A stretch of 64,000 nucleotides of DNA from an uncultured Clostridia bacterium. Lineage in GTDB: Bacteria > Bacillota > Clostridia > Christensenellales > Borkfalkiaceae. The stretch covers positions 1-64,000 of the forward strand of contig CAMWMZ010000003.1 of NCBI GenBank assembly GCA_947175485.1, written 5' to 3'. Positions 1,479-4,417 of this stretch are shown in pieces. Under the pieces are notes generated by a model that saw nothing but the letters and a program-made list of their open reading frames with translations, ran no database searches and was not told the origin of the DNA. Every line of letters starts with the position of its first letter. Position 1 is the first letter of the stretch. The position numbers and the translations under genes are program-made.

Positions 1479-1595
1479 CAATAAAATCCAACAAAAAGCA
1501 ATAAAATGCGACAAAAAACTACATATTTCCAAATTTAACAAGGAAATACAACATAATATAACATAAAACAACAAAAAACCACAACAAAAGACAAC
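1479..1595. promoter_or_regulatory. 10-bp-phased array of CNACA (TGTNG on minus strand) motifs, about 12 consecutive positions
   Basis: Motif positions 1479,1489,1499,1509,1519,1529,1539,1549,1559,1569,1579,1589. ACA falls at the same phase in 8 of 12 decamers; the rest are ATA, AAA or AGG. Confidence 0.8.
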
Positions 1596-1655
1596 ATATG
1601 CGCAAAGCCTTACTCCTTATAATTTTTTAGATTATATAGAAAAGGAGGTGTACAT

Positions 1656-1703
1656 ATGTTTAAGGCATTTTGGAGCTGGTTTTTGACGTTGTTGCTTATC
1701 TAA
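1656..1703 (+). CDS. Putative 15-aa hydrophobic/aromatic peptide MFKAFWSWFLTLLLI
   Basis: ATG preceded by AAAGGAGGTG with good spacing; TATAAT at 1618-1623; followed by a terminator-like hairpin at 1718-1748. Confidence 0.5.
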   Translation: MFKAFWSWFLTLLLI

Positions 1704-1717
1704 TCAGCTAAAAAAAT

Positions 1718-1750
1718 TAAGCGGGTTGCGCTGCGCGCAACCCGCTTAAC
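1718..1750. terminator. Intrinsic terminator hairpin (possibly bidirectional)
   Basis: TTAAGCGGGTTGCGCTGCGCGCAACCCGCTTAACTTTT inverted repeat. Confidence 0.75.
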
Positions 1751-2547: not shown

Positions 2548-2626
2548 AAACAATAATCCACAAAAAGTAACATTTTTCTACATATTACCACAAAAACCAA
2601 CAAAAAGCAACATTTAATACCCCACA
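2548..2626. promoter_or_regulatory. 10-bp-phased array of NNACA motifs upstream of the response regulator
   Basis: ACA trinucleotides at exactly 10-bp intervals, motif starts 2548,2558,2568,2578,2588,2598,2608. Confidence 0.8.
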
Positions 2627-3124: not shown

Positions 3125-4417
3125 ATGGTAAGAAACGTTTTAAGCGCGGTTATGGAAATCAGCCCGACGGTTATAGGTATTATCGCCGCAGCAGCGGCAG
3201 TGCTTATCGGAGCGTTGCTCGCCGTATTTTTTTTGACGAGGAAGAAAAAACGCGCGGACAAGCACCTTGAAAATTTTGCGAAAGACGCGGCGGAGGAGCT
3301 GACCGTTGCCGACTGTGCGGAAACGCCAGAGGAACAGACGGAAACCGAAAAAACCGAGGAAGCCGTTGAAGCGGCGGAAGAAGTTTCGGAAGAACCCGAG
3401 GAAGCTGTTGAAGCGGCGGGGGGGATTTCGGAAAAGGTTGAGGAAGCCATTGAAGAAAAAGGCGAGCCCGAGAGCGCGGAAGAGCCCGACGACGAAAAGG
3501 ACGAGCCCGACGGCAAGGACGACGACGAAGAGGACGAAGCGCCTATCCGCACGGTTGCGCGCGCGGGCGAGCATATAAGATACATAATTATTAAATATAA
3601 CAAGAGCTTTACGGCGAAGCTGATACAGTCGGCGGACGGCGTGAAGGATTATTATACGGAGATAAAAAACGAGATACTTTCTTATAAGGGAGTTAAGGCG
3701 CGCGTAAGCTGGAAATACGAGGCTTTTAACGCGGGGCGCGCAATGCTGGCGAAAATCGCCGTGCGCGGGAAGAATTTAAGCTTGTTCCTTGCGCTCGACC
3801 CCAAAGCTTACGCGGATACGAAATATATTATAGACGATATGTCGGAGGTGGCGGCTTATGAGAAAACCCCGCTTTTGTACCGCATTAAAAACGACAGACG
3901 TTTGAACTATTGCAAAGAGCTTATCGCAACGGTTATGCAGGCGAACGGGCTTGAAAAGCTTGAAAATTACGAAAACAGGCAATGGGGCAAAGAATACCCT
4001 TACGAAAAGATAGAACCGCTTATCGAAAGGAAGCTTGTAAAAGTTTTAACGGAAGAGGACGCAAAGAGCGGCGACGTGTTCAAGCCCCGTTCCCAGGTGG
4101 CGGCAAGCGAGGTTAACGAGCTTTTACAGGACGAAATAGCGGTTGCGCTCATAGAAGAGGCGGACGAAATTTCCGACAAGACGAAATCGGGCATTATAAA
4201 TATAGATACTTTGAGCAGGTATTTCGATAACGGCGAAACGGTTACTTTGGAAGAAATCAAAAAGCGCGTGCCCGATTTCCCGAAGAAAACCACTTTTATT
4301 AAGGTTTTGGCGCGCGGAACTCTTGACAAAAAGCTGAAGGTTATTGCGGACGGCTTTTCAATAGAGGCGGCGAAGATGATACTTTTGACGGGCGGCAACG
4401 CGGTAAAAAAGAAATAA
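3125..4417 (+). CDS. Membrane-anchored protein with acidic linker and C-terminal ribosomal uL15-like domain
   Basis: N-terminal TM (IIAAAAAVLIGALLAVFFL), E/D-rich linker, C-terminus TFIKVLARGTLDKKLKVIADGFSIEAAKMILLTGG resembles the L15/L18e fold. SD GGAAGGTGA before ATG 3125 (GTG 3116 possible). Confidence 0.75.
   Translation: MVRNVLSAVMEISPTVIGIIAAAAAVLIGALLAVFFLTRKKKRADKHLENFAKDAAEELTVADCAETPEEQTETEKTEEAVEAAEEVSEEPEEAVEAAGGISEKVEEAIEEKGEPESAEEPDDEKDEPDGKDDDEEDEAPIRTVARAGEHIRYIIIKYNKSFTAKLIQSADGVKDYYTEIKNEILSYKGVKARVSWKYEAFNAGRAMLAKIAVRGKNLSLFLALDPKAYADTKYIIDDMSEVAAYEKTPLLYRIKNDRRLNYCKELIATVMQANGLEKLENYENRQWGKEYPYEKIEPLIERKLVKVLTEEDAKSGDVFKPRSQVAASEVNELLQDEIAVALIEEADEISDKTKSGIINIDTLSRYFDNGETVTLEEIKKRVPDFPKKTTFIKVLARGTLDKKLKVIADGFSIEAAKMILLTGGNAVKKK

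Follow-up and report, generated by a model that had tools for sequence, protein, structure and literature searches.

At the start of the window (the whole 64,000-nucleotide stretch analyzed here), a tryptophan-rich open reading frame of 15 codons lies between the genes for a sensor kinase and a response regulator. Annotation overlooked it, which raises the question of whether it is a gene and, if so, what its product does beside a kinase. A direct read of the window bore out the original prediction in both coordinates and description: the ORF with its strong Shine-Dalgarno (SD) sequence, the TATAAT box, the stop codon and the hairpin are all in place (Table 1). The ORF runs opposite to both flanking genes, diverging from the kinase gene and converging on the regulator gene. 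Its description as a complete mini transcription unit was also right, with the addition that the terminator is probably shared: the hairpin is bordered by an A-run on one side and by T on the other, and therefore it is probably bidirectional, also terminating the convergent regulator transcript.

Table 1. Features of the micropeptide cassette in the window.
Feature	Position	Strand	Remarks
GHKL sensor histidine kinase, 485 aa	18–1475	−	HATPase_c domain; ~7 N-terminal transmembrane (TM) helices
Array of 10-bp direct repeats, CAACAAAAAN-type, 0A-box-like	1479–1598	+	Divergent kinase/micropeptide promoter region
−10 element TATAAT	1618–1623	+	Direct read; 32 nt between its end and the ATG (short 5′ UTR)
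Shine-Dalgarno AAAGGAGGTG of micropeptide	1641–1650	+	AAAGGAGG-type SD in nearly all relatives
Micropeptide gene MFKAFWSWFLTLLLI, 15 codons + TAA	1656–1703	+	ATG 1656–1658, TAA 1701–1703 (direct read); SD, start and stop kept in orthologous loci
Terminator hairpin 3′ of micropeptide	1717–1749	+	15 pairs, 9 of them G-C
Response regulator REC + Spo0A_C, 261 aa	1756–2541	−	Not Spo0A itself
Second 10-bp array	2550–2616	+	Upstream of regulator gene

The kinase contains an H-box (IIHRDNK), an N box and G boxes, and residues H250 and N362 and the ATP-lid glycines are invariant across 57 homologues. Its AlphaFold2 model (pLDDT 87.8, pTM 0.60) shows a long linker helix and the DHp and CA domains in addition to about seven TM helices at the N terminus. 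The catalytic part matched AgrC modules by profile (PDB 6e52, E = 3.6e-4, and 4bxi), and a Foldseek search with the model returned AgrC (6e95/6e52) among many other kinases. The window kinase is thus a multi-TM GHKL kinase of the HPK10 type, as Agr systems have. The 'AgrC-like' label of the original prediction is accurate as regards the catalytic module and multi-TM layout but does not extend to an Agr system, as a search of the whole genome (97% complete) for AgrB (PF04647) yielded no match. The regulator was ruled out as Spo0A: it scored far below the cut-off of the Spo0A equivalog TIGR02875 (83.7 versus 200 bits), and a separate Spo0A is encoded on contig C1 of the genome, which reached 134 bits for the Spo0A_C domain versus 65 for the window regulator. 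Further along, positions 3125–4417 encode a 430-aa acidic protein with the odd combination of an N-terminal hydrophobic segment and a C-terminal ribosomal L15/L18e domain match (PF00828).

We searched for the regulator in relatives and then in a genus set of 94 genomes, fetching 31 loci. Where a kinase adjoins the regulator, an SD-led peptide of 15–19 amino acids is encoded at the equivalent site; examples are MWKSFWNWLRNLWYCV, MWWRFWSWYRSFWLCI, MFWSFLKNVWHWYLTLWSY and MFWNYLKEVWSWYRNFFFY. These peptides fall into type I (15–16 aa) and type II (18–19 aa). The WxW core of MFKAFWSWFLTLLLI is common to nearly all of them, with Y for the first W in G047. The first half of type II, MFWSYLKxVWSW, is steady, and its final six or seven residues vary freely. 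Searching the 94 genomes with a kinase profile identified 20 kinase genes in 18 genomes, and the micropeptide was present at all 17 that had enough upstream sequence to judge. The kinases of G024 and G008 have their regulator elsewhere in the genome, and the micropeptide is still present (MGFLRWLSDLIQWCFGYFVI and MTRFLRYLRDTWNWWMTMVFY). By contrast, regulators in the genus without a kinase neighbor had the ORF in 0 of 14 cases (flanks of up to 600 bases per side, shorter at four contig ends). The peptide therefore belongs with the kinase rather than with the regulator. A loose DNA pattern of SD, ATG and WxW, too unspecific to be used alone, flagged two further loci in the genus, one in G066 and a second copy in G021. 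Both G021 and G086 carry a type I and a type II cassette in one genome, so that signal cross-talk or specificity could be tested there. Regulator-only genomes (locus L010 in G002, L008 in G016) indicate that the REC domain can decay; the L010 regulator has VGIG in the region of the expected phospho-acceptor Asp, which fits loss of the kinase.

Beyond the genus, a kinase-profile scan of Clostridia genomes returned 76 loci, some of them from the same MAGs as the genus set. According to record titles, the loci span MAGs labelled Lachnospiraceae, Ruminococcus, Oscillospiraceae, Christensenellaceae and Roseburia as well as one named strain, and most carriers of the cassette are uncultured MAGs. The peptide predicted for 'Bacterium 1XD21-13' (L153), a cultured carrier, is MAEFWRILRDLFAA. 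An SD-led ORF of 10–21 codons was found on the peptide strand in 47 of 54 regulator–kinase intergenic regions; the opposite strand carried one in 4 of the 54, and dinucleotide-shuffled versions of these regions averaged 3.0. The conservation check proposed with the original prediction thus came out for the ORF, which is retained both here and at the genus kinases. As a held-out test, a search of 392 class genomes identified kinases in a distant family. Six of the seven full loci encode a micropeptide of the same kind, placed in tandem on the kinase strand (MEDLYEEFLEWLRKWLP, MNWLDALIRWMRKWGQP, MNWYEDFLWWLKYWLY, MSFWEWILYILR, MEEWFDALWQWVSKWL and MDWFDRMVYYVMYLMGL), a strand inspected only after the divergent one had shown nothing. 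The peptide therefore follows the kinase through altered gene order. At the strict cut-off applied in this search, prevalence across the class was 11 in 392 sampled genomes. No recognizable micropeptide was found at the Ruminococcus-type kinase and regulator loci (L150, L156, L162–L164, L170 and L181), several of which have, upstream of the kinase, an inverted repeat that is conserved (GGTGATATGA...TATCATATCACC). A phage- or plasmid-borne cassette was rejected, given no match in phage records, plasmid records or viral contigs. Judged by comparative sequence data, many gut Clostridia pair a membrane sensor kinase with a conserved micropeptide gene, and the data suggest an undescribed family of peptide signalling systems.

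The peptides themselves share a distinct character. Composition of 47 of them was W 18%, F 16% and L 12%, with a slight selection effect on aromatic content (and none on the moment test below), because the most aromatic candidate was listed where starts overlapped; net charge ranged from −1 to +3 and was 0 or −1 in 22 of the 47. There is no proline among the 768 residues of 48 peptides, and their mean hydrophobic moment peaks at 100 degrees (0.486 versus 0.256 shuffled, z = 12.8). The peptides thus resemble short amphipathic alpha-helices. Of the six tandem peptides from the held-out loci, two end in proline. Read as codons, the type II genes differ at positions 1, 2 and 3 in 131, 183 and 159 cases, a sign of fast amino-acid change that is most pronounced in the C-terminal half; this codon pattern is not that of strong purifying selection. 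Substitutions in type II are mildest in frame 0 (mean BLOSUM 0.61, versus 0.14 and 0.20 in the other forward frames). In the wide set, peptide distance was compared with kinase TM-domain distance while controlling for the catalytic domain, giving a partial Mantel value of 0.416 (0 of 1000 permutations) in a type of test that shared ancestry inflates; no TM-specific signal was seen within the genus (0.061; 263 of 1000 permutations). The wide-set value is no more than suggestive of a peptide contact with the kinase sensor domain.

Consistent signals for transcription accompany the ORF. Of 43 relatives, 32 have a TANNMT element 18–38 nt ahead of the start (13.8 on average after shuffling), and 23 have a hairpin with a T-run after the ORF (0.0 on average after shuffling). 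Further upstream, ACA at four or more of six consecutive 10-bp steps occurs at only two places in the 64 kb, namely the kinase/peptide promoter region and upstream of the regulator, compared with 0–1 in block-shuffled controls. Across the full 1.6-Mb genome, four consecutive ACA in 10-bp phase are confined to four places, both cassette promoters included. The pattern's built-in control is uninformative (ACA is the same backwards) and the background was taken from 17 relatives, with 0–1 matches in 16 of them and four in G086; three of these four overlap in one low-complexity stretch, and the other lies just upstream of the G086 regulator. Upstream of 66 regulators from Clostridia, ACA pairs at distances of 10, 20 and 30 numbered 66, 44 and 23, versus about 7 expected each (7.3 at 10), and the reverse motif displayed no such peak. 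The peptide/kinase regions had 15 and 17 pairs at distances 10 and 20, versus 4.1 expected.

On the complementary strand, the array unit CAACAAAAAN becomes TTTTTGTTG, which resembles the 0A box TTTTGTCGAA, and TTCGACAAA itself is present in some relatives. Tandem boxes spaced by 10 bp are bound by Spo0A, and the neighboring Spo0A_C regulator very probably binds the array. Because the array recurs upstream of this regulator family and occupies four places only in the genome, both cassette promoters among them, the regulator likely controls its own gene and the peptide/kinase promoter, which would amount to autoregulation. The feedback loop of the original prediction, in which the array was to activate the micropeptide gene from upstream, is plausible with this assignment. 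Of the two remaining arrays, the third (G000 contig C2, 6637–6699; L205) immediately precedes the gene of a secreted protein that contains Listeria-Bacteroides repeats and BspA-type LRRs; this gene is a candidate regulator target. The fourth (G000 contig C14, 28103–28145; about 7604–7646 in L206) precedes a 300-codon ORF with a sub-threshold DUF1828 match, which adjoins a PLD-type (cardiolipin-synthase-like) gene.

What, then, does the micropeptide do? That it acts on the adjacent GHKL kinase is the best-supported reading of these comparisons. We regard it as an even call whether it is, more specifically, that kinase's dedicated ligand, released from the cell and acting with positive feedback. 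Under the released-ligand model, the peptide, synthesized without a leader, would form a short aromatic amphipathic helix that would partition into the membrane. The peptide would most likely leave the cell unprocessed and act, as a quorum-type pheromone, on the multi-TM sensor domain of the kinase. The REC-Spo0A_C regulator would bind the 10-bp repeats at its own promoter and at the divergent kinase/micropeptide promoter, and the peptide-activated kinase would raise transcription of peptide, kinase and regulator, closing a positive-feedback loop. Several results speak against this model. Neighbor clustering, with the largest clusters viewed, found no exporter, protease/peptidase or immunity gene recurring beside the cassettes; the Ruminococcus-type loci have kinase and regulator without a recognizable micropeptide; the Mantel effect vanishes within the genus; and type II lacks the mark of strong purifying selection.

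The peptide might instead be cell-autonomous, staying in its producer at the inner membrane face and modulating the TM bundle of the kinase, as positive or negative feedback, with no intercellular signalling. The cassette without signal sequence, exporter or processing gene, the genome without AgrB, the amphipathic helix and the linkage to the kinase would all suit such a role. However, the hypervariable C-terminal half is easier to reconcile with signal specificity than with a fixed contact inside the cell, and release of leaderless peptides is known in other systems (PMC10518010), so that we consider a cell-autonomous role rather unlikely. It is less probable still that the peptide serves the two-component system as output and not as input, being a membrane-active effector of the PSM or bacteriocin kind, despite its aromatic amphipathic helix and the regulator-type boxes upstream of its promoter. 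The phenol-soluble modulins (PSMs) of S. aureus offer a precedent, being leaderless and AgrA-controlled. Yet a net charge of 0 or −1 in 22 of 47 peptides is unusual for membrane killing, and the toxin-like role offered in the original prediction is the least favored of its options: the peptide goes with the kinase and not with the regulator, and the cassettes have no recurrent immunity or export gene next to them.

A Trp-rich short ORF followed by a hairpin terminator recalls a regulatory leader of the trpL type, or a small RNA with an incidental ORF. Against this, what the loci conserve is the reading frame, the SD and the amphipathic character, not the RNA sequence, the Trp codons are spaced and variable in number, and the hairpin is followed only by the 3′ end of the convergent gene, leaving nothing to attenuate. 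A trpL-like attenuator is ruled out, as no same-strand gene lies downstream of the terminator, and a leader or RNA role as a whole is highly improbable. Finally, the ORF is very short, and composition alone would yield SD-led ORFs in about 3 of 54 such AT-rich intergenic regions; with 47 observed against 3.0 expected, strand specificity, confirmation at held-out loci and the genus-wide kinase linkage, a chance ORF is refuted and deserves almost no credence. Overall, the interpretation in the original prediction is partly supported.

We tentatively propose, at somewhat less than an even chance, a new class of cell–cell signalling in gut Clostridia, in which leaderless, unprocessed aromatic amphipathic helices of 11–21 aa, without a dedicated exporter or protease, would each act through their own multi-TM GHKL kinase and a Spo0A_C regulator on 10-bp arrays, with species-specific C-terminal codes. 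Short leaderless peptides fall under annotation limits, and peptide signalling of uncultured gut Clostridia is little known. A true signalling family would provide dozens of kinase–peptide–regulator sets, in each of which the predicted ligand could be made directly by synthesis and the predicted operator used in a reporter. We found no prior account of a micropeptide combined with a GHKL kinase and a Spo0A_C regulator in the open-licence PMC literature.

Several described systems share parts of this design. Like Agr (AgrBDCA), the cassette combines a multi-TM kinase of AgrC-type catalytic module with a response regulator, an adjacent peptide gene and likely autoinduction. An Agr system is nevertheless ruled out by the missing AgrB and by the regulator, which is of the Spo0A_C type and not LytTR as in AgrA; nor is there an AgrD-like precursor, the window peptide having neither Cys nor the AgrD layout. 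Phenol-soluble modulins and delta-toxin are likewise short leaderless amphipathic helices, controlled by an Agr-type regulator. The peptides described here differ from them in being linked one-to-one to a kinase, far more aromatic, often neutral or acidic, and without a recurrent adjoining exporter. The regulator shares with Spo0A the DNA-binding domain PF08769 and tandem 10-bp-spaced boxes resembling TTTTGTCGAA (TTCGACAAAA on the other strand), but it is a separate paralogue.

The nearest described kind is the class of leaderless communication peptides (SIP/LCP) that work with RopB, mostly of 8–10 aa and sensed by a cytosolic RRNPP receptor (PMC10518010). Transcription of an LCP is activated by its own receptor, and the sequences are distinct between species (PMC10518010); the wording 'histidine kinase' is absent from the main text of that article. 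In LCP/RopB, a very short leaderless peptide of hydrophobic and aromatic character is encoded beside its receptor; here, the gene for a comparable leaderless micropeptide lies beside a receptor-type kinase, a putative receptor. The present cassettes differ in their 11–21 aa amphipathic helices and in their membrane GHKL kinase and Spo0A_C regulator, with no RopB-like RRNPP protein among the linked genes. If the signalling role is true, leaderless peptide signalling would extend from cytosolic RRNPP receptors to membrane kinases.
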